NCBI GenBank assembly: GCA_026416125.1
Contig: JAOAFT010000015.1
Location: forward strand, 1 to 49,195
Source: Bacteroidota bacterium
GTDB lineage: Bacteria; Bacteroidota; Ignavibacteria; UBA10030
Reading direction: 5' to 3'
DNA length: 49,195 bases
Positions 6,120 to 49,195 of this stretch are shown piece after piece. The translations under genes and the position numbers were made by a program. A model generated the notes under the pieces. That model was not told where the DNA came from, did not search any database, and saw nothing but the letters and a program-made list of their open reading frames with translations. How positions within the stretch are numbered: the stretch's first letter is position 1; each line of letters opens with the position of its first letter.

Positions 6120-6125
6120 AGATCT

Positions 6126-6320: not shown

Positions 6321-6342
6321 GTTATGAAGAAAGGGATACACT

Positions 6343-6690
6343 ATGCCACGTTCACAAAATAAAGTGGCGTCCCACCGTCGTCGAAAAAAAATCCTTGAGC
6401 AGGCAAAAGGATACTGGGGCGCCCGAAGTAAAGTCTATACAATTGCCAAGCACCATGTTGAAAAAGCCGGACTCCACGCATACCGTCATCGGAGAACAAA
6501 GAAGCGTGAGTTCCGTCAACTCTGGATTGCTCGTATCAATGCCGCTGCTCGAATGCATGGTATTACATACTCCAAACTCATTGCAGCATTGAATGCAAAG
6601 AATATTGGTATTAACAGGAAGGTGCTAGCAGATTTAGCAGCCAATAATCCACAGGCTTTTGCTGATGTTGTTAAATTTGCTGTAGCGTAA
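6343..6690 (+). CDS. rplT: 50S ribosomal protein L20
   Basis: A 115-residue protein with the L20 signature: MPRSQNKVASHRRRKKILEQ, AKGYWGARSKVYTIAKHHVEKA, then RRTKKREFRQLWIARINAA. L20 is an early assembly protein of the large subunit and in several bacteria represses its own operon. The ribosome site AAAGGGA precedes the ATG. A large nested inverted repeat begins at the base after its stop codon. Confidence 0.97.
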   Translation: MPRSQNKVASHRRRKKILEQAKGYWGARSKVYTIAKHHVEKAGLHAYRHRRTKKREFRQLWIARINAAARMHGITYSKLIAALNAKNIGINRKVLADLAANNPQAFADVVKFAVA

Positions 6691-6799
6691 AATCTTCTTA
6701 TTTCTGTTTTTGGATTGACCAGCATACGCAAGGGGCACAACATTGCAAGCACGCTGGTCAATCCTCTCTTTTGATATCAGAAGTAAGAAGATTTTTTCT
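6691..6799 (+). terminator. nested inverted repeats ending in a T tract, after rplT
   Basis: The outer arms AATCTTCTTATTTCT (6691-6705) and AGAAGTAAGAAGATT (6779-6793) pair over 15 positions with one G-U. The inner arms GGATTGACCAGC (6712-6723) and GCTGGTCAATCC (6753-6764) pair perfectly over 12, with a GCAA/TTGC hairpin in the loop. A run of T follows at 6794. This can end the infC-rpmI-rplT transcript or attenuate pheST. Confidence 0.6.
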
Positions 6800-6845
6800 T
6801 TGAAGGCATTTCATCAACGTATATAGACATCAGAATGGTGGAAAC

Positions 6846-7856
6846 ATGGAAGAAGTAGCACAACGAATACGGGAAGAATTCCTCGAGGCTCTTCAACAAG
6901 TGCAAACACTTCAGGAACTAGAAAATGTTCGAGTTCAATTCCTAGCTCGTAGTGGGCGTATACCTCAGCTTTTTGATTTACTGAAAACGGTGCCGCATGA
7001 GCAGAAACCGTGCCTCGGTCGAATTCTCAATGAACTTCGTTCATTTGCGCAAGAACGCTTTGATGAACGCAAGCGTGTCCTTGAACAAAGTGTTTATCAA
7101 CGTGGGGAATCACTTGATGTTACACTTCCTGGGCGTCCGAAACCATTGGGTACGAAACATCCAGTAACGCAGGTAATGGAAGAGATAAAAAGAATATTCA
7201 TCGGAATGGGATTTTCCGTTGAGTCCGGGCCGGAAATTGAAAGTGATTGGTACAACTTTGAAGCATTGAATTTTCCAGCAGATCATCCTGCGCGTGATAT
7301 GCAAGACACTATTTTTATAGCAGAGAAAATACTTCTTCGAACACATACCTCCCCAGTACAAATTCGTGTTATGCAAAAGCAAGCACCACCTGTCCGTGCT
7401 ATCATGCCTGGATGGACATATCGAAACGAAGCAACAAGTGCAAGAAGTCTCGTTGCTTTTCACCAAATAGAGGGACTCTTTGTTGATCGACGCGTTACCT
7501 TTGCCGAGCTCAAGGGAACGCTCGTAGCGTTCGCGAAGCAATTCTATGGAAACTCCATTCAGTATCGATTTAGACCAAGTTTCTTCCCATTTACAGAACC
7601 GAGTGCTGAAATGGATATTACCTGCTACATATGCGGTGGAAAAGGGTGCCGCATTTGTAAGTATTCTGGATGGTTAGAGATTTGTGGTGCCGGCATGGTA
7701 CATCCAAATGTGTTTAGGTCAGCTGGGTACGATCCAGAAAGAGTTACAGGGTTTGCATTTGGTATGGGTATTGAGCGTATTGCGCTCTTGCGGTACAACA
7801 TTGATGATATCAGGATTCTCTACGAAAACGATGTTCGATTCCTCAAGCAATTCTAA
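6846..7856 (+). CDS. pheS: phenylalanyl-tRNA synthetase alpha chain
   Basis: This is the catalytic subunit of the heterotetrameric enzyme that charges tRNA-Phe. It has 336 residues, normal for bacterial PheS. The N-terminal coiled coil (1-85) binds tRNA. The class II core begins near 95 with LDVTLPGRPKPLGTKHPVTQ and includes the FxxMGF element (FIGMGFSVESGPEIESDWYN), motif 2 (YRNEATSARS), SAEMDITCYICGG and motif 3 GFAFGMGIERIALLRY. A CxxC..CxxC cluster (CYICGGKGCRIC) is present, as in many PheS proteins. GGTGGAAAC lies just before the ATG. pheT follows after 13 bases. Confidence 0.97.
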   Translation: MEEVAQRIREEFLEALQQVQTLQELENVRVQFLARSGRIPQLFDLLKTVPHEQKPCLGRILNELRSFAQERFDERKRVLEQSVYQRGESLDVTLPGRPKPLGTKHPVTQVMEEIKRIFIGMGFSVESGPEIESDWYNFEALNFPADHPARDMQDTIFIAEKILLRTHTSPVQIRVMQKQAPPVRAIMPGWTYRNEATSARSLVAFHQIEGLFVDRRVTFAELKGTLVAFAKQFYGNSIQYRFRPSFFPFTEPSAEMDITCYICGGKGCRICKYSGWLEICGAGMVHPNVFRSAGYDPERVTGFAFGMGIERIALLRYNIDDIRILYENDVRFLKQF

Positions 7857-7869
7857 GTAGGGGTACGCG

Positions 7870-10290
7870 ATGAAAGTATCACATCGTTGGTTGCAATCGT
7901 TTGTACAGTTTCGATTTACTCCTCAACAGTTTGTTGAAAAACTTTCGATGCTTGGACTCGAAGTAGAAAGTTACGAGGATCAAGCACAAAAGTTCGATAA
8001 ATTTGTTGTTGGTGAAGTACTCGAAACGACGAAACACCCACATGCCGATCGGTTGACACTCTGTAAGGTTGCTGTAGGCACAGAAGTGCTCGACATAGTT
8101 TGTGGAGCACCAAATGTTGCAAAAGGACAAAAAGTGCCAGTAGCACTCGTAGGAGCTGTTGTTCCACGGAATCAGCACAGTGAGAATGGAACACCACTAA
8201 CAATTGAGCGAGTGAAAATTCGAGGTGTTGAATCCAACGGAATGATTTGCTCGGAGTATGAGCTCGGGATCGGTGATAATCGTTCAGGTATTCTCGTACT
8301 CGATCAACGGGCTAAGGTTGGTACGCCCCTTGCTCACTATCTAAGGCGTACAGATATCATTTACGACATTGGCATTACCCCGAATCGTGGTGATTGTTTG
8401 AGTCATATTGGGATAGCTCGAGAAATTAGTGCACTTGTTCAGAAACATTTAAAACTACCCACCATTTCGATAACAGAAAGTACGGCATCAGTAAAAAAGT
8501 TCACAACGGTAACTGTTGAGGATGTCCAACGATGTCCACGATACTGCGCTCGTGTTGTACGGAATGTTACACTGGGACCATCGCCACAGTGGATGCAAGA
8601 TCGATTAGTTGCTCTTGGAATTCGACCAATCAATAACATTGTAGATATAACGAACTACGTCCTGTTAGAAACAGGTCACCCACTTCACGCATTCGATTAC
8701 GATAAGCTTGCGGGACACAGAATTGTTGTTCGTACTGCAACAGAAGGTGAAAAATTCGTAACGCTGGATGGAAAAGAACGAGTGCTAACAGCCGATACAT
8801 TGATAATCTGTGATGCTGAACGTCCTATAGCCATAGCAGGGGTTATGGGAGGGGCAAATACGGAGATTTCTGAGACAACACGAAATGTACTTATTGAAAG
8901 TGCATACTTTGATCCATCGTGCATTCGTCGTACGTCGAAACATTTAGGTCTCTCAACAGAAGCCTCATACCGATTTGAACGAAATGCTGACATTGAAATG
9001 ACTGTGTATGCACTCAATCGAGCTGCGCAACTTATCCAAGAGATTGCAGGGGGTGAAGTACTCAGAGGAATGATCGATGTTTATCCTAAGAAACGAAAAC
9101 CCCATACAGTTCGTGTTCGAGTTCAACGAGTCAATGATTGTATTGGTACAAGTCTTTCGAAAAGTGAGATTTCGTCACTCCTCAAACGATTACACTTTAC
9201 AGTACAATCACGTACGTCACAAGAACTTAGTGTAACAGTTCCTTCATACCGGAATGATATTCGTGAGGAAATTGATATTATTGAAGAAGTTGCACGATTG
9301 TATGGGTACAACAATGTACCAACTGAACGCTATTCATCAATTGACTTTACAGCAACAACCCGGAATGATGTTTTTGAAGATGAACTTCGGAATTACCTTT
9401 GCGGTGCTGGATTCAATGAAATTCTCACTATCAGTTTACAAGATGAAGCAACGGCACGGCTCGCTGGTGGCGAACCGATAAGAGTACTTAACGCTGTTAG
9501 TGCAGGTATGGAAGTCTTGAGGACGAGCCTGATTCCAGGAGCATTGAAAGTTGTTGTCCATAATCAAAATCACGGAACATTGGATGTACGGCTCTTTGAA
9601 ATAGGGACAGTATTTTCAAAACGTTCAGGAGGCTCACCGACAGACCTCGCGAGTTACCATGAAGAGCAACATCTTCTCCTTGTTCTTGGTGGAGCAGTTG
9701 CACCTCTTGCGTATGGCGTCCAACACCGGAAGGTCGATTTCTTCGATATAAAGGGTGAAGTTGAAGCACTCCTTAGGAAGTTTAACCTTGACAAGTATCG
9801 TTTTATTTATTATGATACTCACAGCCCATTGCTTTCGCCGTGTATTGGTGTAGAAATCGGTGGGACACGGGCAGGGCTCTTTGGCAAAGTAAGGAGAGAA
9901 GTCGCAACAGCATTGGGAATTGATGAGCCAGTGTTTGTATGCGAGCTTGTGGTCGATGTACTTCACCGGTACTGGGGTGTGGAGAAAAAGTTTACTCCAC
10001 TGCCAAAATTTCCGAATGTATATCGAGATGTAGCGATTGTGGTAGACCAATCAGTACCCCATGCAGTTGTTGAGGAAGGAATTCGATCAGCAGGAACTCC
10101 TCTTCTCCAAGCGATAATGCTATTCGATGTGTATACGGGAGAACAAGTAGGGCCTGGGAAGAAGAGTCTTGCATACTCGCTGGAATTTCGATCACTCGAC
10201 CATACACTTACCGATGCAGAGGTTGACGATGCTGTTGAAACAATTTTAAGGGCTGTTCACCAGAAGTGTGGTGGAGTTTTACGTCGGTAG
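7870..10290 (+). CDS. pheT: phenylalanyl-tRNA synthetase beta chain
   Basis: The large subunit of phenylalanyl-tRNA synthetase contributes tRNA binding and editing. It has 806 residues, the family length. Visible domains in order are an OB-fold tRNA-binding domain (about 40-150, with HPHADRLTLCKVAVG and ICSEYELGIG), the B3/B4 editing domain (INNIVDITNYVLLETGHPLHAFD), the B5 domain (near 405-475) and a degenerate class II core. The C-terminal ferredoxin-like anticodon-binding domain starts at FPNVYRDVAIVVDQ. AGGGG stands six bases before the ATG. It forms an operon with pheS. Confidence 0.97.
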   Translation: MKVSHRWLQSFVQFRFTPQQFVEKLSMLGLEVESYEDQAQKFDKFVVGEVLETTKHPHADRLTLCKVAVGTEVLDIVCGAPNVAKGQKVPVALVGAVVPRNQHSENGTPLTIERVKIRGVESNGMICSEYELGIGDNRSGILVLDQRAKVGTPLAHYLRRTDIIYDIGITPNRGDCLSHIGIAREISALVQKHLKLPTISITESTASVKKFTTVTVEDVQRCPRYCARVVRNVTLGPSPQWMQDRLVALGIRPINNIVDITNYVLLETGHPLHAFDYDKLAGHRIVVRTATEGEKFVTLDGKERVLTADTLIICDAERPIAIAGVMGGANTEISETTRNVLIESAYFDPSCIRRTSKHLGLSTEASYRFERNADIEMTVYALNRAAQLIQEIAGGEVLRGMIDVYPKKRKPHTVRVRVQRVNDCIGTSLSKSEISSLLKRLHFTVQSRTSQELSVTVPSYRNDIREEIDIIEEVARLYGYNNVPTERYSSIDFTATTRNDVFEDELRNYLCGAGFNEILTISLQDEATARLAGGEPIRVLNAVSAGMEVLRTSLIPGALKVVVHNQNHGTLDVRLFEIGTVFSKRSGGSPTDLASYHEEQHLLLVLGGAVAPLAYGVQHRKVDFFDIKGEVEALLRKFNLDKYRFIYYDTHSPLLSPCIGVEIGGTRAGLFGKVRREVATALGIDEPVFVCELVVDVLHRYWGVEKKFTPLPKFPNVYRDVAIVVDQSVPHAVVEEGIRSAGTPLLQAIMLFDVYTGEQVGPGKKSLAYSLEFRSLDHTLTDAEVDDAVETILRAVHQKCGGVLRR

Positions 10291-10338
10291 CGTACACGTG
10301 CGTGTACTGCGAAAACTCATCAAAAAAGGAGTATAACC

Positions 10339-10680
10339 GTGCCTGAGCAGCACGAGGTCGTTGAGTTGAGCCAACGACGTACAATACAAGAGATCGAAGA
10401 GTCGCTCCAGCGTTTATGGGAAAAGGCTCATGCTGTCTCGGAAGTAGTTGTGCGGTTAAAGAATGAGAATCGAGAACTTCGAGTTCAGAACGCTGCTCTG
10501 CGAGAACAGGTGCAACAACGAGAGCGAGAACTTGAAGTAAAGATTCGAGAAATAGAATCGTTGCGTGCACAAATCAGAGAAGTCCAGTACAACGAGAGTG
10601 CTCTTATATCAAAGGAGGAAAAAGAAGAGCTCAAAAGTAAATTAAGAGAATTGATTGCAAAAATTAATTCACACTTATGA
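10339..10680 (+). CDS. coiled-coil protein, ZapB-like
   Basis: This 113-residue protein is almost entirely heptad-patterned and charged (VVVRLKNENRELRVQNAALR through IREIESLRAQIREVQ), with a short N-terminal segment. The GTG start is supported by AGGAG at the right distance. It lies between pheT and zapA, the position where many Bacteroidota encode a short coiled-coil cell-division protein. ZapB-type proteins bridge ZapA-bound FtsZ rings (family knowledge). The ZapB assignment rests on length, coiled coil and the neighbouring zapA rather than on a specific motif. Confidence 0.65.
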   Translation: MPEQHEVVELSQRRTIQEIEESLQRLWEKAHAVSEVVVRLKNENRELRVQNAALREQVQQRERELEVKIREIESLRAQIREVQYNESALISKEEKEELKSKLRELIAKINSHL

Positions 10681-10716
10681 TGCTGATGGACGCGGCATCG
10701 TTGTTTGGAGAAAATC

Positions 10717-11052
10717 TTGATAGTTAACGTAACAGTAGATAGCTTAATGAACGGGAAAAGCATTCGCGTAAAAATATTTGGAAATGAGTATCCCCTTCGT
10801 GGAGAAAGTGAGGAATTTACACGGCAAGTTGCTGAGTATGTGGATGCAATGATTACAAGAAATCATTCAAAGCTCCCGGAGCAACCGCCGTTGACAATTG
10901 CTGTGCTTTCTGCCTTGAATATTACAGAAGATTTACTGAAAGAACGTGAAGCTCGGGCGTTAGAACTTGAGCGGTTAGAACTTGAGATCGAGAAATTAAC
11001 CAATTACCTTGATAATTGTTTAGTTCTCGGAGATCAGGATCAAAGCTCCTAA
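10717..11052 (+). CDS. zapA: cell division protein ZapA
   Basis: ZapA binds and bundles FtsZ protofilaments at mid-cell. The core reads KSIRVKIFGNEYPLRGESEE, then YVDAMITRN, then LTIAVLSALNITEDLLKERE and a C-terminal coiled coil, the typical ZapA layout. The start is uncertain. TTG at 10717 has GGAG six bases upstream and gives about 111 residues; ATG at 10747 gives 101 residues and begins just before the conserved part; TTG at 10705 is also open. A 6S-like RNA follows, an arrangement also known in proteobacteria. Confidence 0.85.
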   Translation: MIVNVTVDSLMNGKSIRVKIFGNEYPLRGESEEFTRQVAEYVDAMITRNHSKLPEQPPLTIAVLSALNITEDLLKEREARALELERLELEIEKLTNYLDNCLVLGDQDQSS

Positions 11053-11089
11053 TACTGTTATGTTCTTTGGAAAGTTTGTAGTTCGTGTG

Positions 11090-11341
11090 ATGCCGCACCA
11101 TCAGCCATAGTTAAACCATGTTATATAGAACCTGACACCCATATAATATGGGAATCTGGCTCGTGAGCGTGGAGCGCATGCCATCTCAATGGACGGAAGT
11201 CCAATGAGCCCAGCGATGATCCTCAGTGGAATGCTGAGGGGAGCGGGCAATGGAAGTGTGAAATGCTCAGGCAGATACCCACTGTATTTGTTTTGAGGTT
11301 CTACAAATACATTTAATTGTGGCGATGTGTGCGGCTTTTTT
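11090..11341 (+). ncRNA. ssrS: 6S-like regulatory RNA
   Basis: About 250 bases fold into one long interrupted hairpin. Closing arms GCCGCACCATC (11092-11102) and GATGTGTGCGGC (11324-11335) pair with one bulge. They continue directly as GCCATAGTTAAA (11104-11115) with TTTAATTGTGGC (11312-11323). TAGAACCT (11126-11133) pairs with AGGTTCTA (11296-11303), then ATCTG with CAGAT. Two inner hairpins are CCTCAG/CTGAGG (11221-11239) and GGAC-GGAA-GTCC (11191-11202). Six T residues follow the last arm, giving a terminator. 6S RNA mimics an open promoter and binds RNA polymerase. The long duplex with internal loops and the zapA neighbour support the call; length is above the usual 180-200. The ends are approximate. 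Confidence 0.65.
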
Positions 11342-11370
11342 ATTGAATTCTTTGAAGACGAGGTAGATAT

Positions 11371-12933
11371 ATGGACGCGTACATATTAATACTCATTGGC
11401 GCTGCATTAGCAGGCGTCGGATTTTTCCTTGGATGGTTCGTCAATGCTCGAATTGGGCAGAACAAAATCCTTTCCGCTGAAGAGAGAGCGAAAAAGATTC
11501 TCGAAGATGCTGAGAAAGAAGCATCAGCTCTTAAACGTGAAAAGATGTTGGAAGTTAAAGATGAATGGTATAAAAAGAAAAAAGAATTCGAAGCGGACAT
11601 GCAAGTCCGAAAAAACAAACTTCAAGCTTATGAAAAGCAGCTTTCAAATCGTGAGGAAAATCTCGAACGGAAACTCGATATCCTTTTGAAAAAAGAAACG
11701 GCACTTCAAGCGTTTGAAAAAGAATTGGCTGAACGGCAACAAAAACTCGGAGAACGAGAGAAAGAGCTTGAAAAAATAATCGAGGAACAAACGGTACGAC
11801 TTGAACGACTCTCAGGAATAAGTCGAGAGGAAGCAAAGAAAGTACTCCATCAAAGTCTCATTGAAGAAGTAAAATCAGAAGCGCTTCAACTATTAAAGGA
11901 TACACGCGATACAGCACGTGCTGAAGCAAAGAAAGAGGCACAAAAAATTATTATTCAGGCTATTCAACGCACAGCTGTGGACTTTACTCTTGAAACCACA
12001 GTAAGCGTACTGAATGTTGGAAGTGATGAGATGAAGGGCCGTATCATTGGTCGTGAAGGGCGTAACATCCGTGCTTTCGAAGCAGCAACCGGTGTCGATG
12101 TTATTGTGGATGACACACCGGAAGCAGTCATCCTTTCAGGATTCGATCCTTTTCGGCGCGAAGTTGCTCGTGTTGCACTTGAACGCCTTATTGCTGATGG
12201 ACGAATCCATCCAGCCCGTATTGAAGAAGTAGTAGAAAAAGTCCGGCAAGAACTCGAGGAGGATCTCATTCACACCGGAGAAAACACACTCCTCGAGGTT
12301 GGTCTCCATTCTGCACATCTTGAAATCATTAAGCACATTGGAAAAATGAAGTATCGTTCAAGTTACGGTCAAAATTTACTCCAGCATAGCATTGAAGTTG
12401 CATATCTCACTGGAATCATGGCAGCTGAACTTCGATTAGATCCATTACTTGCAAAACGTGCTGGGTTGCTCCATGATATTGGTAAAACGCTCGAAAAAAA
12501 CATTGAAGGACCCCATGCACTCTTAGGATATGAACTCTGTAAGAAGTACGATGAGCATCCTATCATTTGCAATGCAGTTGGTTCCCACCACGACGATATC
12601 CCAATGGAACATCCTATTGCTGCACTTGTACAAGCTGCCGATGCCATTAGTGGTGCTCGTCCTGGTGCCAGGAGGGAGTCTGTTGAGGAGTACATCAAGA
12701 GGCTCGAAAAACTCGAATCGATTGCAAAATCGTTCCCCGGTGTCGTTACAACGTATGCTATTCAAGCAGGGCGCGAAGTTAGGGTAATTGTGAACTACGA
12801 ACGTCTGGATGATGCTGCTGCCGATCAACTCGCGCACGACATTGCACGTCGGATTGAGCAGGAAATGGAATATCCCGGGCAAATTAAAGTGGTTGTAGTC
12901 CGTGAGTTCAGAGCGACTGCTATTGCAAAGTGA
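11371..12933 (+). CDS. rny: ribonuclease Y
   Basis: A membrane-anchored endoribonuclease that starts mRNA decay. It has 520 residues, typical for RNase Y. An N-terminal transmembrane helix (about 4-24, LILIGAALAGVGFFLGWFV) is followed by a long coiled coil (30-190), a KH RNA-binding domain (GRIIGREGRNIRAFEAATGV, near 223) and an HD domain with HSIEVAYLTG and AGLLHDIGK, where the HD pair binds metal. It then has HPIICNAVGSHHDDIP and the C-terminal RNase Y domain. It follows the 6S-like RNA and precedes a probable promoter region. Confidence 0.96.
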   Translation: MDAYILILIGAALAGVGFFLGWFVNARIGQNKILSAEERAKKILEDAEKEASALKREKMLEVKDEWYKKKKEFEADMQVRKNKLQAYEKQLSNREENLERKLDILLKKETALQAFEKELAERQQKLGEREKELEKIIEEQTVRLERLSGISREEAKKVLHQSLIEEVKSEALQLLKDTRDTARAEAKKEAQKIIIQAIQRTAVDFTLETTVSVLNVGSDEMKGRIIGREGRNIRAFEAATGVDVIVDDTPEAVILSGFDPFRREVARVALERLIADGRIHPARIEEVVEKVRQELEEDLIHTGENTLLEVGLHSAHLEIIKHIGKMKYRSSYGQNLLQHSIEVAYLTGIMAAELRLDPLLAKRAGLLHDIGKTLEKNIEGPHALLGYELCKKYDEHPIICNAVGSHHDDIPMEHPIAALVQAADAISGARPGARRESVEEYIKRLEKLESIAKSFPGVVTTYAIQAGREVRVIVNYERLDDAAADQLAHDIARRIEQEMEYPGQIKVVVVREFRATAIAK

Positions 12934-13060
12934 AAGATCAATAACCATCGTTCAGTTTCGGTAGCGTAATGAGGAGGAACTGCTGCTCAACAGCACCTCT
13001 AAAAGTTCTTTACTTTTTCTGTATATTAGGAGTACAGAAAGGAAAAAGGACACAAGGGGT

Positions 13061-16045
13061 GTGAGTACCATACGGTCAATATTCGAAAGTGAGACAACAG
13101 GTGTGCGCATCCAGGATTTTCAGAAACTTATGCGCTACAAAGTACGTGATATTCTCCTCGTTGCGAGTCTTTACGACTATTACCTTTTCGAAGAAGATGG
13201 ACGTCTCTATGAACTCATTCGTCAAGAATTTCAAGCGCTTAACCTTAGTCACCCACCAGAAATAACACATGTTACAAGCGGCGCAGAAGCTATACAGCTC
13301 CTCATCTCGGGGGAACACTTCGATCTTGTTATAACAACACTCCATATGGAAGATATGCATGTTGTTCAGTTTGCAGAGCAAGCTCGTGCAGCAGGTGTGT
13401 CAATCCCAATAGTACTACTCGCATACGATAGTCGTGAACGAAAAGAATTAATGGAACGATACAACACTGCTGTGTTTGAGCGAATTTTCGTGTGGCATGG
13501 GGATTATCGCTTGATTGTTGCTATTATTAAGTACATCGAAGATAAGATGAACGTCGAGAACGACGTTGCTACCGTCGGGGTTCAGTGTATCATTCTCGTT
13601 GAAGATAGTGTGTCCTTCTACTCATCGTATCTTCCACTGCTTTACACTGAAATATTTATTCAATCACGGCGACTTATTGCCGAAGGTGTAAATTTAACGC
13701 ATAAATTTCTTCGTATGCGTGCCCGACCAAAAATTCTTCTTTGTTCAACGTATGAGGAAGCATGGGCATACTTCGAAAAGTATGAAGAGTACATTCTTGG
13801 AGTAATTTCAGACATTGATTTTATTCGGGAAGGGAAAAAGAATCCGAATGCTGGTGTAGATTTCGCTCATGCTGTAAAGAGCCGCAAAGATGATATCCCT
13901 GTTCTCCTTCAATCGAGTAATGAATCAGCTCGCGAAATTGCCAAACGAATTGGTGTTCACTTTCTCCATAAGCGCTCACCAACATTGCTCCACGATCTGA
14001 GTGCATTTGTAAAGCAGCACTTCGGATTTGGTGACTTTGTTTTTCGTATGCCAGATGGTACAGAAGTTGGTCGTGCCTCGAATCTCCAGGAGCTTGAAGA
14101 GTATCTCAAGAAAGTTCCAGATGCCTGTATTCAGTACCATGCTGAACGTAACCATTTTTCAAACTGGTTGAAGGCACGGACTGAGTTTTGGCTTGCTCAT
14201 AAGTTACGACCCCGGAAAGTCTCCGATTTCCCCTCCATTGATGCACTGCGGTATGATCTCATCGATGCTATCAAACGCTACAAGGAAGAACGCCAACGGG
14301 GTATAATGACTGAATTTTCAAAAGCAACGTTTGATCCAACAGTAAGCTTTGCACGAATTGGTACAGGTTCTATTGGTGGTAAAGCTCGTGGTCTTGGGTT
14401 CCTCAACACACTCATTAACACATATAACTTACAGAGAAAATTTGATGGTGTTGAGATTACCGTACCATCGGCAGTAGTAATTGCAACTGATGTCTTCGAA
14501 CGATTTCTCAACGAGAATAATCTCACGAATATTTTTGTTGAGCAACTTCCTGATGAGGTTATTATTCAGAAGTTTCTCGATGCACCGTACTTCCCTCCGG
14601 ATGTTGAGCACAAGCTTCGAGATTTCCTCGAGCTCATGCGTGTCCCATTAGCTGTTCGATCATCGAGTTTACTGGAAGATTCCCAGTACCAACCGTTCGC
14701 TGGTGTGTACCACACGTATATGATTCCCAACAATCATCCTGATAGTAACGTACGATTAAAAGAACTAATTGAGAGCATCAAGCTTGTGTATGCTTCCACC
14801 TATTTCCAACGTGCACGTGAGTATATGAAAGCAACACCATATCACCTCGAAGAAGAACGGATGGCTGTCATTGTTCAACGGATGGTTGGTATGCAACACG
14901 AAGAACGTTTTTATCCAGAGTTTGCAGGTGTTGCAAAGTCATACAATTTTTACCCCCTTCCTCCCCAGAAGCCAAACGATGGGATTGTACAGGTAGCGGT
15001 AGGGTTAGGGTACACTGTCGTGGAAGGAAGGAATTCAGTTCGGTTTTGTCCAAAGTATCCTCGTCATCTTGTGCAATTTGCAACAACACGGAGTGCCATT
15101 CAAAATTCTCAACAAGAATTCCTAGCACTCGATGTCACGGCGTCGTTTAGTTACGAGCACTATGAGACCCCTGATGTTCTACTCAAACACTACGATGTTT
15201 CTGTTGCTGAACGTGATGGTGTGTTGTCCAATGTTGTTTCTACCTTTGTCCCAGAAGAGGATGCAATTTACGATGGTTGTTCACGAGAGGGAAGGCGATT
15301 AGTGACGTTTGCACCGATGCTTAAACAACATCTTTTTCCGTTACCAGAAATTGCAACAACGATTCTTGAAATAGGATCTTGGGGAATGGGAACCCAGGTA
15401 GAGCTTGAATTTGCAGTATCGAAACACCCGCGGAATAAAGACCTTTATGAATTTGCACTCCTTCAAATTCGTCCATTAGTACTGAGTCCAGAATCTGAGA
15501 GTATACACATCGAAGTACCTAATGAGTCGGCTTTGTTCTGTAGAAGTCACCAAGTACTCGGGAATGGTGTATACAGAGACGTGTATGATCTCATTGTCGT
15601 TAATCCACGTACATTTGAACGATCTAAAACAAAGATGACCGCAGCAGAAGTTTCATACCTGAACAAAAAGTTACACACAATGAAGCGCCCGTATATTTTA
15701 GTTGGTTTTGGACGATGGGGGAGTCTTGACCCTTGGCTTGGAATTCCTGTTACGTGGGACCAAATTGCTGGTGTTTCTGTTATTGTCGAATGTGGTTTTG
15801 CTGACATTGATGTTACTCCTTCACAGGGCTCGCACTTCTTTCAAAATATTACATCGTTCCGTGTTGGGTACTTTACAATTAATGGGCAAACGGGGGAAGG
15901 GTTTGTGGATTGGAAGTGGTTGGAGACACAGCAGAGTTCCGAGGAGTTGCAGTACGTTACCCACTATCACTTTGAAAAACCTCTTGTGGTAAAAATAAAC
16001 AGTCAGGAAAGTATTGGAGTTATTTTAAAACCAGAGAAAGGATAA
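13061..16045 (+). CDS. two receiver-like domains fused to a PEP-synthase/PPDK-type nucleotide-binding domain
   Basis: A 994-residue protein beginning at GTG, with AAGGGG just upstream. Residues about 28-160 look like a response-regulator receiver (ILLVASLYDYYLFEE, DLVITTLHMEDM, PIVLLAYDS). Residues about 173-320 form a second one (IILVEDSVSFY, GVISDIDF, IPVLLQSSN). From about 425 comes the N-terminal ATP-grasp part of PEP synthase / pyruvate phosphate dikinase: IGTGSIGGKARGLGF, then AVRSSSLLEDSQYQPFAGVY (near 532) and MAVIVQRMVG. The phosphohistidine swivel domain and the C-terminal PEP-binding barrel are absent. It therefore cannot run the full pyruvate-to-PEP reaction by itself; a signalling kinase-like role is inference. 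aguB follows after three bases. Confidence 0.75.
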   Translation: MSTIRSIFESETTGVRIQDFQKLMRYKVRDILLVASLYDYYLFEEDGRLYELIRQEFQALNLSHPPEITHVTSGAEAIQLLISGEHFDLVITTLHMEDMHVVQFAEQARAAGVSIPIVLLAYDSRERKELMERYNTAVFERIFVWHGDYRLIVAIIKYIEDKMNVENDVATVGVQCIILVEDSVSFYSSYLPLLYTEIFIQSRRLIAEGVNLTHKFLRMRARPKILLCSTYEEAWAYFEKYEEYILGVISDIDFIREGKKNPNAGVDFAHAVKSRKDDIPVLLQSSNESAREIAKRIGVHFLHKRSPTLLHDLSAFVKQHFGFGDFVFRMPDGTEVGRASNLQELEEYLKKVPDACIQYHAERNHFSNWLKARTEFWLAHKLRPRKVSDFPSIDALRYDLIDAIKRYKEERQRGIMTEFSKATFDPTVSFARIGTGSIGGKARGLGFLNTLINTYNLQRKFDGVEITVPSAVVIATDVFERFLNENNLTNIFVEQLPDEVIIQKFLDAPYFPPDVEHKLRDFLELMRVPLAVRSSSLLEDSQYQPFAGVYHTYMIPNNHPDSNVRLKELIESIKLVYASTYFQRAREYMKATPYHLEEERMAVIVQRMVGMQHEERFYPEFAGVAKSYNFYPLPPQKPNDGIVQVAVGLGYTVVEGRNSVRFCPKYPRHLVQFATTRSAIQNSQQEFLALDVTASFSYEHYETPDVLLKHYDVSVAERDGVLSNVVSTFVPEEDAIYDGCSREGRRLVTFAPMLKQHLFPLPEIATTILEIGSWGMGTQVELEFAVSKHPRNKDLYEFALLQIRPLVLSPESESIHIEVPNESALFCRSHQVLGNGVYRDVYDLIVVNPRTFERSKTKMTAAEVSYLNKKLHTMKRPYILVGFGRWGSLDPWLGIPVTWDQIAGVSVIVECGFADIDVTPSQGSHFFQNITSFRVGYFTINGQTGEGFVDWKWLETQQSSEELQYVTHYHFEKPLVVKINSQESIGVILKPEKG

Positions 16046-42762: not shown

Positions 42763-42789
42763 TTGACAATATATATATATATATATATT
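42763..42789 (+). promoter_or_regulatory. promoter with (AT)10 spacer, candidate phase-variable
   Basis: A perfect -35 hexamer TTGACA (42763-42768) is followed at once by ten AT units (42769-42788). The only -10-like hexamer, TATATT (42784-42789), lies at a 15-base spacing. One added AT unit would give the optimal 17. Slippage of the tract would thus change promoter strength, as is known for the hifA/hifB (TA)n promoter of Haemophilus. It stands 68 bases before the peptide gene. Confidence 0.6.
42769..42788. repeat. (AT)10 dinucleotide microsatellite
   Basis: Ten uninterrupted AT units occupy the promoter spacer before the six-cysteine peptide gene. I noticed no other long dinucleotide tract elsewhere in the window. 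Confidence 0.95.
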
Positions 42790-42856
42790 GCACTTGGCTA
42801 GCCACAATAATAACTACAATAACAATTACCACAAATAATTTTATAAGGAGGTTTCT

Positions 42857-43042
42857 ATGAAAAAAGTATTTCAAGTTGTTGCAATTGTTGTAATGTTTTC
42901 TGTAATTATACCTGACATTATTGAGGCAAAACCAGCTTCTTGTATATCGGCCTTTGTCCGATGTCGTGAGTTGTGTGGTGGAGGATGGTTCGGTGAGGGA
43001 TGTTCAGTTGGCTGCGGAATTGGTTACCTCCTGTGTTCGTAA
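42857..43042 (+). CDS. secreted six-cysteine glycine-rich peptide (unrecognised family)
   Basis: A 61-residue precursor. A KK start and hydrophobic core form a signal peptide with probable cleavage after A24 (IIEA/KPAS). The mature 37 residues hold six cysteines (29, 36, 40, 49, 53, 60) and many glycines (CGGGWFGEGC, GCGIGY), and an even cysteine count fits three disulfides or thioether links. The ribosome site AAGGAGG, five bases before the ATG, is the strongest seen in the window. A strong terminator follows. It heads a set with a thioredoxin-like membrane protein and an ABC exporter, so a bacteriocin-like or signalling peptide is plausible (inference). No known family was recognised. Confidence 0.75.
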   Translation: MKKVFQVVAIVVMFSVIIPDIIEAKPASCISAFVRCRELCGGGWFGEGCSVGCGIGYLLCS

Positions 43043-43053
43043 GTGAAATCGAT

Positions 43054-43106
43054 TGCCCCTTTGAGACTAGTACGTTATGGGTTGTTATTCCTCAAAGGGG
43101 CATTTT
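43054..43106 (+). terminator. terminator between peptide gene and beta-propeller gene
   Basis: TGCCCCTTTGAG (43054-43065) and CTCAAAGGGGCA (43091-43102) form a perfect 12-base stem with a 25-base loop, followed by TTTTAT. Partial read-through would yield abundant peptide mRNA and lower expression of the downstream genes. Confidence 0.75.
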
Positions 43107-43126
43107 ATCACCGCTAGGTAAAGAAT

Positions 43127-44092
43127 ATGAACTGTCAACGAAGTCGTGTGTTAATTACTGTTCTTATCATTGTATTGCCTAATATTTTTCTTCGTGCTCA
43201 AACAGCAGAAACAAGAGCCTTTATTGCGAAGGCAGTGAAGAGTATCGGCGATACACTATTTTATGGGGTAACAGATTTCGATTTTATGCCAGATGGATCA
43301 CTCATCGTGTGTGATCGATTGGATTACAAGGTAAAGCTTGTTTCCAGAAGTGGAAAATTAGTACGGGAGGTAGGACAACGGGGCACTGCCCTCGGTGAAT
43401 TTCGCACAGGACCTCTTTTCTTAGCTGTAGGGAAATCCCAGATTGCAGTTGCAGAATATTCGTCACCGCGCGTTCAACTTTTTACGCACGCTTTACAGCC
43501 AATTCGTGAATTTAGAGTCAAGGGATTTGTAATGGGACTGAAGTATGACAATGGTGGCTGTTTGTGGATAGGTACCCATGGAGGGTTGCGCGAGTATACG
43601 AAAATGATAGCTTTTGACGAAAATGGGAATACTAAACAAGAGATTTCATTAAAAAGTTCAAGTAATAACATTTTTGAGAATCTCTATTACTTTACAATTT
43701 ATAAAGACACTGTGTATGTTGCCTATGCCTATCAGAACATTATAGAACGGTATTATGGAACAGATTATACGGCGTATCGATTGTCATTTTTTCCAGCGAA
43801 ACCGAAGTACACAATCGTTGAAAAGGAAAACAACACTGCATTTCCTGAAGAAGAATTAATCTATAGCCTCGCAATAGATCAACGAGGACTTCTCTATATT
43901 TTGGGTGGTGATTGTGCTTTCAATCCATTTCAAGATGTTTTTATTGTGATGTCGAATGGTAAGATAGCCGCACTTCTTACATTACCAGAGAAATCGAAAA
44001 AGATTGCACTTGATAAAGAGGGTTACTTGTGGAGCCTTGAACGTAATAGGACGGTTCTAACAAGATACTCTGTCTCTGCTCCTAAAAAGTAG
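43127..44092 (+). CDS. exported 6-bladed beta-propeller (NHL-like) protein
   Basis: A 321-residue protein with a signal peptide (VLITVLIIVLPNIFLRAQ). It has repeated propeller strands of the form DFDFMPDGSLIVCDRLDYKV, FLAVGKSQIAVAEYSSPRVQ and LKYDNGGCLWIGTHGGLREY, spaced about 45 residues apart. This matches 6-bladed NHL-type propellers common in Bacteroidota, where they occur near small Cys-containing exported peptides. A role as binding partner or maturation factor for the peptide is inference. It is followed after 12 bases by the MauE-thioredoxin gene. Confidence 0.72.
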   Translation: MNCQRSRVLITVLIIVLPNIFLRAQTAETRAFIAKAVKSIGDTLFYGVTDFDFMPDGSLIVCDRLDYKVKLVSRSGKLVREVGQRGTALGEFRTGPLFLAVGKSQIAVAEYSSPRVQLFTHALQPIREFRVKGFVMGLKYDNGGCLWIGTHGGLREYTKMIAFDENGNTKQEISLKSSSNNIFENLYYFTIYKDTVYVAYAYQNIIERYYGTDYTAYRLSFFPAKPKYTIVEKENNTAFPEEELIYSLAIDQRGLLYILGGDCAFNPFQDVFIVMSNGKIAALLTLPEKSKKIALDKEGYLWSLERNRTVLTRYSVSAPKK

Positions 44093-44104
44093 GAAAAGGA
44101 TCCG

Positions 44105-45046
44105 ATGGAAACAAATAATCAAGATAGTAAAATTATTGATGCATTAATTTCGGTGATTCTCCAATCTGTTGGGGTTGTGTGTCTGCTGATAGCGATTTCT
44201 ACGTTTGTTGAGTTCTCAGCATTTACCTTTTTCATTGCAAGTACGCTACACATTTCTTCAACTCTAGCAATGGTGGTTGGTAGTCTTATTCTTGTAGTTG
44301 AATTCGCAGGGGGTGTAATTCTATGCTTGCGTAAATATTCATTCCTTTTTTTGGTTACTTTACTATGTACTTTTGGCTTTTTGTTAATACTCTCCTTTTT
44401 AAATCATGTTAATCGGACTTTATTGGCTAACCTCAGTCTTGGTTTTATCTACCGCTTTTTTTCAAATGAACAAATGTTTATTCTTCAATTAGGTATTATT
44501 GGTGTTCTTGTTTTATTCGGTGCAAGGAGAAGCAAGAATATAAAAACACTTCTCATCAATTTTGGCATGGTTGTTCTTTTGTCACTAGCTCTTGTACGGG
44601 AATACCGCTATCGTTCACCGCAACTGCTGGAGCACACTAAATCCCTTTCTAGAGTACTTAATAACCTCCAAAGTGACAAGCAGCTGAAGAGTACGAGAGC
44701 AGTTATCATTTTTTTGCAATACAATGATTTCAATTGTCCCCCGTGCATGGAAAATATTTATGAAACAAGTTTTCGAATAGCTTCAGAACTTCAATCGCAG
44801 CATTCGACGCAGGTAATGGTTTTCATGCGTGAAGACGAAGTGATGTTCAATCAAACGCGGGTTGATCATTGGAAAAGTGTGAATAATTATCCGTTTGCAG
44901 TAACGTGGTTACCCGATTCATTGTTTACGAGACTTGGTTTGCAGAAAAGCAGTATTGTTATTCTCGAAGATCGTCAAATATTATTACAGGAAAAATTCCC
45001 ATTGAATGCTAGTGACATAAATAAAGTAGTAACGTTTCTCCGGTGA
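44105..45046 (+). CDS. MauE/DoxX-like membrane protein fused to thioredoxin-like domain
   Basis: A 313-residue protein. The first half has about five hydrophobic helices (ILQSVGVVCLLIAISTFVEF, LAMVVGSLILVVEFAGGVIL and others), resembling the MauE/DoxX electron-transfer fold. From about 200 comes a thioredoxin-like domain with CPPC at 211-214 (FLQYNDFNCPPCMENIYE). MauE with a thioredoxin partner forms disulfides in the cysteine-rich methylamine dehydrogenase small subunit (known system). Here a fused version next to a six-cysteine peptide suggests it oxidises or isomerises that peptide. It overlaps the ABC ATPase gene by four bases. Confidence 0.7.
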   Translation: METNNQDSKIIDALISVILQSVGVVCLLIAISTFVEFSAFTFFIASTLHISSTLAMVVGSLILVVEFAGGVILCLRKYSFLFLVTLLCTFGFLLILSFLNHVNRTLLANLSLGFIYRFFSNEQMFILQLGIIGVLVLFGARRSKNIKTLLINFGMVVLLSLALVREYRYRSPQLLEHTKSLSRVLNNLQSDKQLKSTRAVIIFLQYNDFNCPPCMENIYETSFRIASELQSQHSTQVMVFMREDEVMFNQTRVDHWKSVNNYPFAVTWLPDSLFTRLGLQKSSIVILEDRQILLQEKFPLNASDINKVVTFLR

Positions 45047-45957
45047 TTACAATGTTAGAATATATAATTAAAATCGACGCCCTCTCGAAAATTTATCGAA
45101 AAGATGTATTTGATAAGCAGCCAGTTGCAGCACTTAACAATGTGTCGCTCAGCTTTTATCAGGGTGAAATTGTCGCAGTGCTGGGAGTGAATGGAGCCGG
45201 GAAAACAACACTTACGAAGTGTATGTTGCAGCTTGTACGTCCAACGAGTGGAAAGGTATTGTTCAATGAACATGTTTTGAATAGAAAGAAAAGTAGCATC
45301 GGTTATTTACCAGAACATTTTCGAGTTCCACCGTATTGTACTGCCAGAGGTGTGTTACATACGCTTGGACTTATGAGTGGTATGGAGAGAAGTGAACTCA
45401 ACAAGCGTATCGAGCTTGTTCTTCAGCTTGTTGGTTTGGATGATCGAAGAAATTCTTTTGTAAAAGAGTACTCTAAAGGGATGATAGTACGGCTAGGGAT
45501 TGCGCAGGCGATACTGCACAATCCCCAACTCCTCTTCTTAGATGAACCGACAGATGCACTTGATCCACTTGGGAAAATTATGGTGCGGAATCTCTTACGA
45601 GATCTTTCGAATCAGGGAGTTACGATTGTTGTAAATTCACATTTACTAACAGAAATAGAGCTGATTGCACATCGAGCGGTCATCTTGCATAAAGGGAACG
45701 TTATAAGGGAAGGGAACATAGGTGATCTCCTTGCTGGACAAGCAGGATTTTTCCTTCAACTCTCATCATATATCGAAATGCCACCGCCATACTCGTGTTC
45801 GTACAATGGGAAAGTATGGATTTGTGAAGTACAGTCAACACAAGAGTTACAACAAGCTTTAGATATTTTGCGTGGTAAGGGGGTTACTCCCCTCAATGTC
45901 ATACCAAAGCGAACAACACTGGAAGATCTATTCATTCGAACAATAGAGGAACAATGA
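45043..45957 (+). CDS. ABC transporter ATP-binding protein
   Basis: A 304-residue ATPase with Walker A (GVNGAGKTTLTKCM), Q-loop region, signature YSKGMIVRLGIAQAI (normally LSGGQ, here YSKGM as in several ABC-2 exporters), Walker B LLFLDEPTDALDP and the switch histidine in NSHLL. The last 75 residues are an extra beta-rich domain. It drives the adjacent permease. Overlapping starts and stops with both neighbours show an operon. Confidence 0.92.
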   Translation: MITMLEYIIKIDALSKIYRKDVFDKQPVAALNNVSLSFYQGEIVAVLGVNGAGKTTLTKCMLQLVRPTSGKVLFNEHVLNRKKSSIGYLPEHFRVPPYCTARGVLHTLGLMSGMERSELNKRIELVLQLVGLDDRRNSFVKEYSKGMIVRLGIAQAILHNPQLLFLDEPTDALDPLGKIMVRNLLRDLSNQGVTIVVNSHLLTEIELIAHRAVILHKGNVIREGNIGDLLAGQAGFFLQLSSYIEMPPPYSCSYNGKVWICEVQSTQELQQALDILRGKGVTPLNVIPKRTTLEDLFIRTIEEQ

Positions 45958-46739
45958 AACAACTATCGTTATTTACCACAACATTTCAAAAAGTAATTCA
46001 TCAGCCAGCAATTATATTGCTTATCGTTGTGGAATGTGCGCTTCTACTCATACTTCTTTTTGCAGTGCAATGTGAGTATGATAATGGTATGCTTGTATCA
46101 ATACATGTGTTTGGTAAGTCGCATGACATGGATTTAACGGCTATACTTTTACTTGATACATTAATAAAATTTTTATGGAACGTTATTATGTTCCTCCTTG
46201 TACTAGGAACTGCAGGATTGTTTGCTGAATTCTTTACTGATCCCTTACTTTCAATTTACATAACGAAAGGATTTCCCCGATACCATTTGGTATTAAGTTA
46301 CTACCTATCGGTTGTTTTTACTATTGCAATTCTTCAGGGAGTATTTGCTTTAGCAATGAGTATAACATTATATCTCAAAACTGGATCGTATTTTGGGTAT
46401 TTTTTCATTTCGGTACTCTTGAGCTCTCTCGCGATAGTCTCATTACTTGTTTCGGTTAGTTCTCTTGTTTCTGTATTCTTTGAAAAACCGACTGTTTCAC
46501 TTGTGGTTGTTCTTGTTGTGTACTTTGTCCAACCTTTATTATCTTTCGGGTATGATCGTGCATCAACTGCTGTGAACATATTTCTTCTCCTATTACCGCC
46601 AATCTCGCAAGTAAACAATGCGTTTTTTAAGACCTTGCAAAGTGAGTCGTCAATACAATTTCCAATAATAGTATTCCTCTACATATTTTTCGTTCTGAGT
46701 TGTACTCTGTTCTATTTTCAGAAAAAAGATATTGTATAA
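45954..46739 (+). CDS. ABC-2-type permease
   Basis: A 261-residue integral membrane protein with six hydrophobic segments and a cytoplasmic N-terminus (MKQLSLFTTTFQKVI). The layout is that of ABC-2 permeases: a first helix, a loop with FGKSHDMDLTAILLLDTLIK, and a cluster of four to five C-terminal helices. It starts inside the ATPase stop codon (ATGA). Together they should export or detoxify a peptide or lipid-like substrate; the cassette peptide is the obvious candidate. Confidence 0.82.
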   Translation: MKQLSLFTTTFQKVIHQPAIILLIVVECALLLILLFAVQCEYDNGMLVSIHVFGKSHDMDLTAILLLDTLIKFLWNVIMFLLVLGTAGLFAEFFTDPLLSIYITKGFPRYHLVLSYYLSVVFTIAILQGVFALAMSITLYLKTGSYFGYFFISVLLSSLAIVSLLVSVSSLVSVFFEKPTVSLVVVLVVYFVQPLLSFGYDRASTAVNIFLLLLPPISQVNNAFFKTLQSESSIQFPIIVFLYIFFVLSCTLFYFQKKDIV

Positions 46740-46744
46740 TAACT

Positions 46745-47494
46745 ATGTGCTCTGAAAATATAAATACAAGGGAGAATGCTGCGTGGTGGGAATATTATTT
46801 CTACCCCATCCCTTCTGTGAAAGAAGAAATTACGGTCTCTAGATTCTCCTCTCAAGTAACTGTAGTAATACTCTTTGGATACTTTTGTCTCTTGTGGCTT
46901 TCTAATTATATTGTTATGACAAATGTACCGTTTATGGAGTATCTATTCTCGCTTGAAGAAAAATACGGTACGATGTCAGAAGAATCATTAGAGATGACAA
47001 GAGTAGGTTTCACGTATTTGCATGAACATACATGGCTTGGAATACTTTTTACTGGTTATATGACACTAAAAACATTGGTAATCGTTGGTACGATGATGGT
47101 TGTAGCTGCGTTAAGTACATTCAGATACCGTACCGCAAAGAGTATCATTCATATTCAGCAAGTTCTGTATTGGGGTGCGTTGTCGACATTACCTTTGGTA
47201 ATTGGCAGTGTACTCTATGCGATTTTGCGAGTATTGATGGTTCTCGATATGACGTCGTTGAGTGCTGCACTCGCATTTCCCTATTCTGCTCGCCGTGGAG
47301 TGCTCTTTGAGTTTGTTAACTCGTTTGATCTCTTCACTGTGTGGTTTATTGTATTGTTTGCTTCACGTCTTGCGAAACTCTTACATGACGATTTCCTCAC
47401 AGTATTTACGTACTTGATCGTAGCACATATACTTGCTGTTGCTATAAGTTTCCTTCTCAGAGTTGATAGTATTTTGAGCTTATTCCTAAAGTGA
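46745..47494 (+). CDS. polytopic membrane protein (Yip1-like pattern)
   Basis: About 249 residues from ATG 46745 (an in-frame TTG at 46700 would overlap the permease). The soluble N-terminus has WWEYYFYPIPSVKEEI, then five hydrophobic segments. Four-to-five-helix proteins with a pattern of this kind, including Yip1-type proteins, are frequent last genes of ABC operons in Bacteroidota. The specific family is not certain. It may be an immunity or accessory membrane factor (inference). Confidence 0.6.
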   Translation: MCSENINTRENAAWWEYYFYPIPSVKEEITVSRFSSQVTVVILFGYFCLLWLSNYIVMTNVPFMEYLFSLEEKYGTMSEESLEMTRVGFTYLHEHTWLGILFTGYMTLKTLVIVGTMMVVAALSTFRYRTAKSIIHIQQVLYWGALSTLPLVIGSVLYAILRVLMVLDMTSLSAALAFPYSARRGVLFEFVNSFDLFTVWFIVLFASRLAKLLHDDFLTVFTYLIVAHILAVAISFLLRVDSILSLFLK

Positions 47495-47610: not shown

Positions 47611-48537
47611 ATGAAACATCGCGCACCATACAACCGAACTATAACGCTCACAGAGAAAGAACGAAAGCGTTTTCTGTCGCAAATCGATCGACTCACTACA
47701 CCGAGCGCAGTTGGCAATGTACTCAACAAAGTATTCTGCCAGGATATGATGGAAGCAGTAGTTTTGTTACCAGAGAACTTTGTGGATCTCCTTATTCTCG
47801 ATCCACCGTACAATTTGAGCAAAAGGTACAATTCTCATCAATTTCGAAGGATGGACGAGTATGAGTATGAGCAGTGGATGGAGCAATGGTTCGTTCCACT
47901 TTTGCGCTTACTCAAACCAACATCGTCGGTTTACATATGTAGTGAGTGGCAAACGTCGGGTATCATACAGCGAGTGTGTGAGCGATACTTGAAGGTACGA
48001 AATCGAATTACCTGGGAGCGAGAGAAAGGGCGTGGTGCGAGAAAAAACTGGAAAAATGCTTCTGAGGATATATGGTTTTGCACTGTGTCAGACGAGTACA
48101 CATTCAACGTCGATGCGGTGAAGCTGAAACGGAGAGTACTAGCTCCATACCGTACCGATGGGAAACCGAAGGACTGGCAGGAGCATGGGAAACAGAAATA
48201 TCGGTTCACGTATCCATCGAACCTATGGACTGATATTACAGTACCGTTTTGGTCGATGCCAGAAAACACTGACCATCCAACACAAAAATCTGAGAAGCTC
48301 GTTGCAAAACTCATCCTTGCAAGTACACGGGTTGGCGATGTTGTCCTCGATCCATTTCTGGGTTCTGGTACAACTGCAGTCGTTGCAAGGAAACTTGGTA
48401 GACATTTTGTTGGGATCGAGAAAGATGAAGAGTACTGTTGCTATGCACTCAAACGACTTGAATATGCACAGCATGACAAGCGAATTCAAGGTTACGAGGA
48501 TGGAGTTTTCTGGGAAAGGAATACAATAATTCGGTAG
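47611..48537 (+). CDS. site-specific DNA-methyltransferase (adenine type)
   Basis: A 308-residue beta-class amino-methyltransferase. The catalytic motif IV LLILDPPYNLSKRYNSHQF precedes the SAM-binding motif I VVLDPFLGSGTTAVVARKL, and motif X is GIEKDEEYCCYAL. The target-recognition region lies between them. DPPY points to N6-adenine or N4-cytosine activity. No restriction endonuclease gene is next to it, so it is an orphan methylase or part of a system outside the window. It could affect gene expression or act with the upstream phase-variable cassette, which is speculative. Confidence 0.88.
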   Translation: MKHRAPYNRTITLTEKERKRFLSQIDRLTTPSAVGNVLNKVFCQDMMEAVVLLPENFVDLLILDPPYNLSKRYNSHQFRRMDEYEYEQWMEQWFVPLLRLLKPTSSVYICSEWQTSGIIQRVCERYLKVRNRITWEREKGRGARKNWKNASEDIWFCTVSDEYTFNVDAVKLKRRVLAPYRTDGKPKDWQEHGKQKYRFTYPSNLWTDITVPFWSMPENTDHPTQKSEKLVAKLILASTRVGDVVLDPFLGSGTTAVVARKLGRHFVGIEKDEEYCCYALKRLEYAQHDKRIQGYEDGVFWERNTIIR

Positions 48538-48659: not shown

Positions 48660-49109
48660 ATGTCGGCTTTACGTTTTTACTCGGGGCCAACGCTTGAACT
48701 TTTTTCTGCAGCAACGGAGGTGGAGCTTGCTTTGCCATTTCTCTCAGCAGAAATTAGTGCTGGATTTCCCTCTCCGGCACTCGATTTTGTTGAGTGTACA
48801 ATAGATCTCAATAAGCACCTTGTTAAACATCCTGCTACGACGTTCTATGGGCGTGTCAAAGGTGAATCGATGCGCGATGCCGGTATTAACGATGGGGATT
48901 TGCTTGTGATCGATCGGAGTCTTGAACCGCGTAACGGCAAAATTGCTGTGTGTTACATTGACGGGGAATTTACCTTGAAACGCATTAAAATTTCAAAAGG
49001 AGTAGTGTGGCTAATGCCTGCCAATCCCGAGTACGAACCGATCAAAGTGGACGAAGGAAATGAGCTCCTCATTTGGGGTATTGTCACACACGTGATAAAG
49101 ACACTATGA
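48660..49109 (+). CDS. umuD: UmuD-like SOS polymerase subunit (S24 peptidase)
   Basis: A 149-residue LexA-like self-cleaving protein. The cleavage site A34-G35 (ISAGFPSP) precedes the S24 peptidase fold with catalytic Ser70 in FYGRVKGESMRDAG and Lys107 in DGEFTLKRIK. Cleavage yields UmuD', which with UmuC forms the translesion polymerase V. The stop overlaps the umuC start (ATGA type), so they are coupled. Damage-induced expression is likely, with a palindrome upstream. Confidence 0.93.
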   Translation: MSALRFYSGPTLELFSAATEVELALPFLSAEISAGFPSPALDFVECTIDLNKHLVKHPATTFYGRVKGESMRDAGINDGDLLVIDRSLEPRNGKIAVCYIDGEFTLKRIKISKGVVWLMPANPEYEPIKVDEGNELLIWGIVTHVIKTL

Positions 49110-49195
49110 TGTATGCGCTTGTCGACTGCAATAACTTCTACGCTTCGTGTGAGCGAGTATTTCGTCCCGATCTTGTTGGGGAACCAGTTGTTGTC
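49106..49195 (+). CDS. umuC: UmuC-like Y-family DNA polymerase, 5' end only
   Basis: The first 30 codons read MMYALVDCNNFYASCERVFR then PDLVGEPVVV, the conserved start of UmuC with the metal-binding DCNNFYASCE motif. The gene is cut by the window end. The ATG at 49106 overlaps the umuD stop; ATG 49109 is an equally good start one codon later. It is the catalytic subunit of the translesion polymerase. Confidence 0.93.
   Translation, partial: MMYALVDCNNFYASCERVFRPDLVGEPVVV

Follow-up and report, generated by a model that had tools for sequence, protein, structure and literature searches.

An exported six-cysteine peptide family paired with NHL-type beta-propellers in the Bacteroidota

We analyzed a stretch of 49,195 nucleotides from a Bacteroidota bacterium (contig JAOAFT010000015.1 of assembly GCA_026416125.1; hereafter the window), in which a cassette begins with the gene for a short peptide precursor with six cysteines (Table 1). 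This peptide belongs to an unnamed conserved family, predicted to be exported, that we identified in the genomes of many bacteria of the Bacteroidota group, from at least two classes. As judged from gene neighborhoods, the pairing of the peptide with a beta-propeller protein is essentially obligatory. A sequence-only reading of the window had described a candidate new peptide system, and the coordinates, gene order, strong ribosome site, six-cysteine precursor, terminator-like repeat, and tight gene spacing that it gave were all confirmed in the sequence. It had also recognized no known family for the peptide, and our searches of Pfam and NCBIfam with the peptide family gave no credible match. 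PADLOC found only generic ATPase matches.

The peptide gene is found next to a propeller gene

If we searched 80 related genomes with tblastn, using either the peptide alone or the MauE-thioredoxin protein of the cassette alone, then the matches were on the same contigs and about 1.2 kb apart. Seven genomes had such converging matches (G004, G030, G037, G050, G058, G071, and G074). A profile of 11 peptides (A1) was then used to search further genomes of the class and then of the phylum, where it found new members by sequence alone. A profile enlarged to 21 peptides (A6) had matches in a second class, and in a search of the whole order, 15 of the 98 genomes carry the peptide. In most of the further genomes, the hidden Markov model matched with E values of about 1e-10 to 1e-24, and the matches adjoin a propeller gene.

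Every recognizable intact copy of the peptide gene is directly 5' of a gene for a six-bladed NHL/DUF5128 propeller. Some of the seed peptides had been picked for their position, so a neighboring propeller is in part built into the seed set. This bias does not apply to the 17 intact loci whose peptides were first picked up from sequence alone, and in all 17 the propeller gene is immediately downstream on the same strand. The sequence-only reading would have fallen if the peptide frame were not conserved beside these genes in relatives, and these loci show that it is. The sole match with E < 1e-4 and no adjoining propeller (G410, E = 6e-6) has an in-frame stop codon, so we took it to be a chance match and not a member of the family.

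The association was also seen from the side of the propeller. A propeller profile identified 17 of the 98 genomes in the order, and all 15 of the peptide-bearing genomes are among them (hypergeometric P ~ 7e-16). In the two other genomes, the propeller is at a contig end (G060) or the peptide has decayed (G032, see below). To scan named genomes, our propeller alignment (A2) was too divergent, and three closer sequences were used instead; these gave two loci only, from Bacteroidia bacterium HBSIN02 and from an Ignavibacteriae metagenome-assembled genome. The AlphaFold model of the propeller (pLDDT 85) has NHL propellers as its structure matches. Propellers from L036, L045, L077, and L080 score above the gathering score of PF17170 (DUF5128), while the window's propeller is below it. 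The propeller is predicted to lie outside the inner membrane, and several relatives have a lipobox-like cysteine.

The NVEALA loci (PF14055) of the Bacteroidia are among the closest known systems, as they also have a small Sec-exported, cysteine-containing peptide directly 5' of a propeller, and the propellers belong to one broad family with ours. However, the peptide sequences and cysteine patterns are unrelated, and there is no ATP-binding cassette (ABC) transporter in the NVEALA loci that we examined. We rejected NVEALA membership for our peptide, as PF14055 has no match to the window's peptide at E ≤ 1 and none above threshold in G000. In the library that we searched, we found no literature on NVEALA or on cassettes like ours. 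We also note that at the NVEALA loci L124 (G489:C2, 13835-14725) and L126-L127, a signal peptidase I (PF10502) and DUF1573 lipoproteins adjoin the propellers.

Other types of cysteine-rich peptides can have the same partners. At L045 (G042:C2), a 12-cysteine exported peptide (11010-11264) adjoins a DUF5128 propeller together with thioredoxin, ABC ATPase, and permease-like open reading frames (ORFs). L072 (G155, 4625-15683) contains repeated cassettes with two MauE genes, a second propeller, and copies of a LuxR-type regulator at 4625 and 12755, as well as two further unrelated cysteine-rich peptides (10185-10415 and 15504-15683). The repeats in L072 suggest that exchangeable peptide families share the same partners.

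The peptide is probably a disulfide-stapled helical hairpin

The pattern that is common to 30 peptides is C-x6-C-x3-C-x(8-17)-C-x3-C-x6-C, which is nearly palindromic. The exact palindromic spacing of 7-4-n-4-7 is found in 26 of the 30 (with a single extra residue in the second CX3C in one of these). The peptide of L077 has neither outer cysteine, and those of L039 and L044 have the two at shifted positions. Since one outer cysteine does not change without the other, we argue that they form a disulfide (C1-C6), and the twin CX3C core argues for C2-C5 and C3-C4 disulfides. Taking the cysteine pattern and the structural model together, the mature peptide is probably a helical hairpin that is stapled by three nested disulfides. 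In the window's precursor, all six cysteines are after the signal peptide, and a cut after Ala24 would leave 37 residues. AlphaFold (with three sequences) gave a helical hairpin with helices at 27-40 and 46-58 (pLDDT 71). The only plausible fold match was to the CX3C hairpin peptide VBP-8, and it was weak and not significant (E = 4.7); weak PDB profile matches include the designed hairpin peptide Tk-hefu-11. A 10-cysteine variant with a longer tail (L046; G016, 2798-3160) adjoins genes for a propeller, a thioredoxin, an ATPase, and a permease.

Plant alpha-hairpinins are antimicrobial peptides with a helix-loop-helix fold, cross-helix disulfides, and the core motif C-x3-C-x(4-20)-C-x3-C, and their six-cysteine form is C-x3-C-x3-C-x(4-20)-C-x3-C-x3-C (PMC11591084). 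Our peptides have this core motif, and a helical hairpin is predicted for them at moderate confidence, with the weak match to VBP-8. However, they are bacterial, and their outer cysteines are at x6 instead of x3, so they do not fit the published six-cysteine form. The likeness to the plant peptides is probably convergent, and we do not claim homology.

Accessory genes and the comparison to the mau system

In most loci of both classes, the ABC genes follow the propeller gene. The MauE/thioredoxin part is confined to the window's class: in the second-class loci (L076-L081 and L108-L111), the ATPase gene directly follows the propeller gene. Since the MauE/thioredoxin part is class-restricted and one clade does without the ABC genes, we consider the peptide and the propeller to be the invariant unit and the redox and ABC parts to be add-ons. 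An 842-amino-acid gene that follows the cassettes lacking ABC genes was a suspected partner and was rejected (it is a UvrD helicase where checked).

Of the MauE-thioredoxin proteins that we aligned, 8 of 8 match the MauE family (PF07291; best E = 1.2e-20). The window's own MauE half is a weak match (E = 0.25), and the CxCFG motif of MauE is lost there and in G037 but kept in the other aligned copies. The CXXC motif of the thioredoxin is kept in every intact copy from the peptide cassettes that we examined, including those from the window and G037.

The sequence-only reading had compared the cassette to the mau (methylamine dehydrogenase) system, which likewise combines a propeller with a thioredoxin-like domain and a nearby MauE-type membrane domain. 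The peptide would then be the disulfide-rich catalytic subunit of an enzyme, with a tryptophan-derived cofactor, and the propeller would be another subunit. The MauE-like domain and the propeller are indeed present. However, the peptides have no conserved tryptophan, and thus no conserved pair for tryptophan tryptophylquinone or cysteine tryptophylquinone, so there is no subunit of the former type. The MauE/thioredoxin part is dispensable across the family and missing from the second class, the window's MauE has no CxC, the propeller is of another type (NHL, DUF5128-like), and we noticed no MauG or dehydrogenase genes in the loci examined. The comparative data effectively refute a mau-like enzyme.

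The ATPase is similar over its full length to NosF (PDB 7o0y; profile positions 19-297 of 301, E = 7e-64), which is the nearest full-length bacterial ATPase in PDB. Some of the cassette permeases match PF12679. PDB profile searches with the permease and with the third membrane protein gave no match.

The partner genes can outlast the peptide

In the first cassette of G042 (L074), the peptide leader has acquired a frameshift and a stop codon, and the thioredoxin gene is also frameshifted. The other four genes, for the propeller, the ATPase, the permease, and the third membrane protein, are undamaged, and this cassette is followed by a complete one. G032 belongs with G042 to one related genus; its cassette (L146) occupies the corresponding chromosomal site and has no peptide ORF. 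Instead, two colinear DNA segments resemble the G042 peptide gene (71% over 55 bp with E = 7e-4, and a match at 13 of 14 positions), with the cysteine codons lost; a protein-level search for this remnant was not significant. The five partner genes of G032 are intact, with dN/dS relative to G042 of about 0.11 to 0.36, which is rough as dS is large. The retention of the propeller and the ABC genes after the loss of the peptide fits immunity or reception, and not a role for the peptide as a subunit or a chaperone. From these sequences, self-protection or reception fits better than a subunit of a mau-like enzyme.

This bears on another explanation, in which the cassette would serve mechanotransmission or assembly in the way of NosDFY, with the cysteine peptide as the chaperone that brings a metal or a cofactor to a partner enzyme. 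Like NosDFY, the cassette has a full-length NosF-like ATPase, a PF12679-type permease, and an extracytoplasmic all-beta partner, and CX3C can bind copper in other proteins. However, NosD is a beta-helix and not an NHL propeller, and we noticed no nos structural genes in the loci examined, nor any metalloenzyme that is consistently adjacent. Also, the outer cysteines change in pairs, as expected for a disulfide, and the decay of a chaperone while the machinery stays is not expected. We consider this explanation to be quite improbable.

Layout of the window's cassette

Downstream of the propeller gene, the intergenic gaps are 12, -4, -4, and 5 bases. Between the peptide and propeller genes is a perfect 12-bp inverted repeat, TGCCCCTTTGAG (43054-43065) and CTCAAAGGGGCA (43091-43102), followed by TTTTAT. 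Most loci have stable intercistronic hairpins in the same place but with unrelated sequences, and 18 of 27 peptide/propeller gaps had z ≤ -2 relative to dinucleotide shuffles (mean z = -2.9). This layout suggests that the peptide is produced at higher levels than its partners. Besides the (AT)10 tract (42769-42788), the genome (2.41 Mb) has no other run of ten AT repeats, and L077 has (AT)7 in a similar place. We speculate that two more bases would give a 17-base spacer from TTGACA to TATATT, so a change in length could switch the promoter, which would make it phase-variable.

Table 1. Features of the peptide cassette in the window
Feature	Position	Strand	Remarks
TTGACA then (AT)10 tract, 5' of the peptide gene	42763-42788	+	candidate length-variable promoter spacer (tract seen in sequence; promoter role predicted)
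Ribosome-binding site of the peptide gene, AAGGAGG	42845-42851	+	about six bases 5' of the ATG at 42857 (seen in sequence)
Six-cysteine peptide precursor	42857-43042	+	61 amino acids; signal peptide at about residues 1-24; mature part about 25-61 (42929-43039)
Terminator-like intercistronic hairpin, peptide/propeller	43054-43102	+	perfect arms of 12 nt; most relatives have a hairpin at this site
Exported NHL-type six-bladed beta-propeller, DUF5128-like	43127-44092	+	obligatory neighbor of the peptide gene
MauE/DoxX-like membrane domain fused to a thioredoxin-like domain	44105-45046	+	CPPC at 44735-44746; CxCFG of MauE lost
ABC ATPase, NosF / LanF / ABCA type	45043-45957	+	Walker A, signature (YSKGM), Walker B, and H-loop all intact
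ABC-2 permease, PF12679 kind	45954-46739	+	
Multi-span membrane protein, unnamed	46745-47494	+	confined to cassettes of the window's class that have the ABC genes

The implied high expression and the Sec signal would also be expected if the peptide were a component of the envelope or surface that is displayed by the propeller, with the ABC unit helping to place it; the predicted location of the propeller outside the inner membrane and the lipobox-like cysteines of several relatives would fit as well. But the peptide is patchy among close relatives (as seen across the 98 genomes of the order), and it decays while the rest is retained, so we view a surface component as improbable.

Directly after the window's cassette is a DNA methylase gene (47611-48537; PF01555, E = 3e-43). 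Genes for Y-family (error-prone) DNA polymerases are closely 3' of the cassette in three distant genomes (48660-49195 in the window, 9905-12009 in L080, and 7950-8843 in L075), and two of the three polymerases have UmuD-like partners beside them. This could be a coincidence or an SOS-linked setting.

Proposed role

Based on the sequences and on analogy, we tentatively propose that the cassette serves to produce and mature a small secreted peptide and to protect the cell from it (or to receive it), in the manner of a bacteriocin with self-protection; we would put this somewhat short of an even chance. Sec would carry the peptide across the inner membrane, and in the periplasm it would fold into the alpha-hairpin with its nested C1-C6, C2-C5, and C3-C4 disulfides. 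Disulfide formation might be assisted by the MauE-thioredoxin fusion, through its thioredoxin domain, in the lineage of the window, and by general Dsb enzymes elsewhere. The intercistronic hairpin would allow the peptide to be in large excess over the other proteins. The propeller would bind the peptide outside the inner membrane, and the ABC unit with the extra membrane protein would clear the peptide from the inner membrane or drive its release from the propeller.

The proposal in the sequence-only reading that the propeller and the ABC unit handle the peptide is supported by the obligatory pairing, by the presence of ABC genes in most loci, and by their retention after the peptide has decayed. 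It had offered export or self-protection as the role of the ABC unit. We doubt export, given the Sec-type signal peptide of the precursor and the lack of a peptidase domain in the ABC unit; self-protection is, by analogy, the best-fitting role.

In lantibiotic producers, LanI binds the lantibiotic and LanFEG expels it (PMC5786555), and the propeller and the ABC unit may have these roles here. By architecture, lantibiotic loci (lanA - hairpin - lanI - lanFEG) are also among the closest known systems; they have the peptide gene first, followed by a hairpin, a peptide-side extracytoplasmic protein, and the ATPase and membrane subunits of an ABC unit (PMC5786555). However, our cassette has no lanthionine enzymes or peptidase exporter, disulfides are predicted instead of thioethers, and a propeller takes the place of LanI.

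Several observations count against our proposal. The ATPase matches the LanF-type model TIGR03740 at 155 bits, which is far below the curated cut-off of 310. The cassette encodes no exporter that would take the peptide out of the cell. One clade (L035, L038, L040, L105, and L106) has MauE-thioredoxin but no ABC genes. The net charge of the peptides ranges from +1 to -10, which is unlike cationic pore-formers. The genes retained in G032 include an intact thioredoxin part and are thus not limited to protection, and both cases of decay are from one genus and from draft genomes.

That the peptides are mostly neutral to acidic would suit signaling or sensing, in which a pheromone-like peptide would be received or carried by the propeller and cleared or imported by the ABC unit, with no toxicity. 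The cassette would then be an ABC-equipped relative of the NVEALA-propeller loci: in G489 and G571, NVEALA peptides are encoded directly 5' of DUF5128/TolB-like propeller lipoproteins, without ABC genes. Reception could also outlast the loss of the peptide. But no sensor kinase or regulator is consistently adjacent, and we found no published function for NVEALA peptides. We consider signaling to be unlikely, though a serious contender; by analogy, we favor a toxin, with a pheromone being less likely.

Implications

It is possible, though less likely than not, that these cassettes are an undescribed interbacterial or signaling class, in which an alpha-hairpin peptide with three disulfide rungs is held by a dedicated NHL propeller and is moved or cleared by a NosFY/LanFEG-like ABC unit, in at least two classes of Bacteroidota. 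Together with the NVEALA loci, they would form a broad partnership of peptides and propellers with exchangeable peptide families. In any case, this is a new exported peptide family that is tied to a partner propeller, and we found no intact copy without one. With its predicted helical hairpin and three disulfides, the peptide is of interest as a compact scaffold from bacteria, and natural loci with a dead peptide and surviving partners are available. The role of the peptide-propeller loci, including the NVEALA loci of gut Bacteroidia, is therefore directly testable by binding and growth assays.

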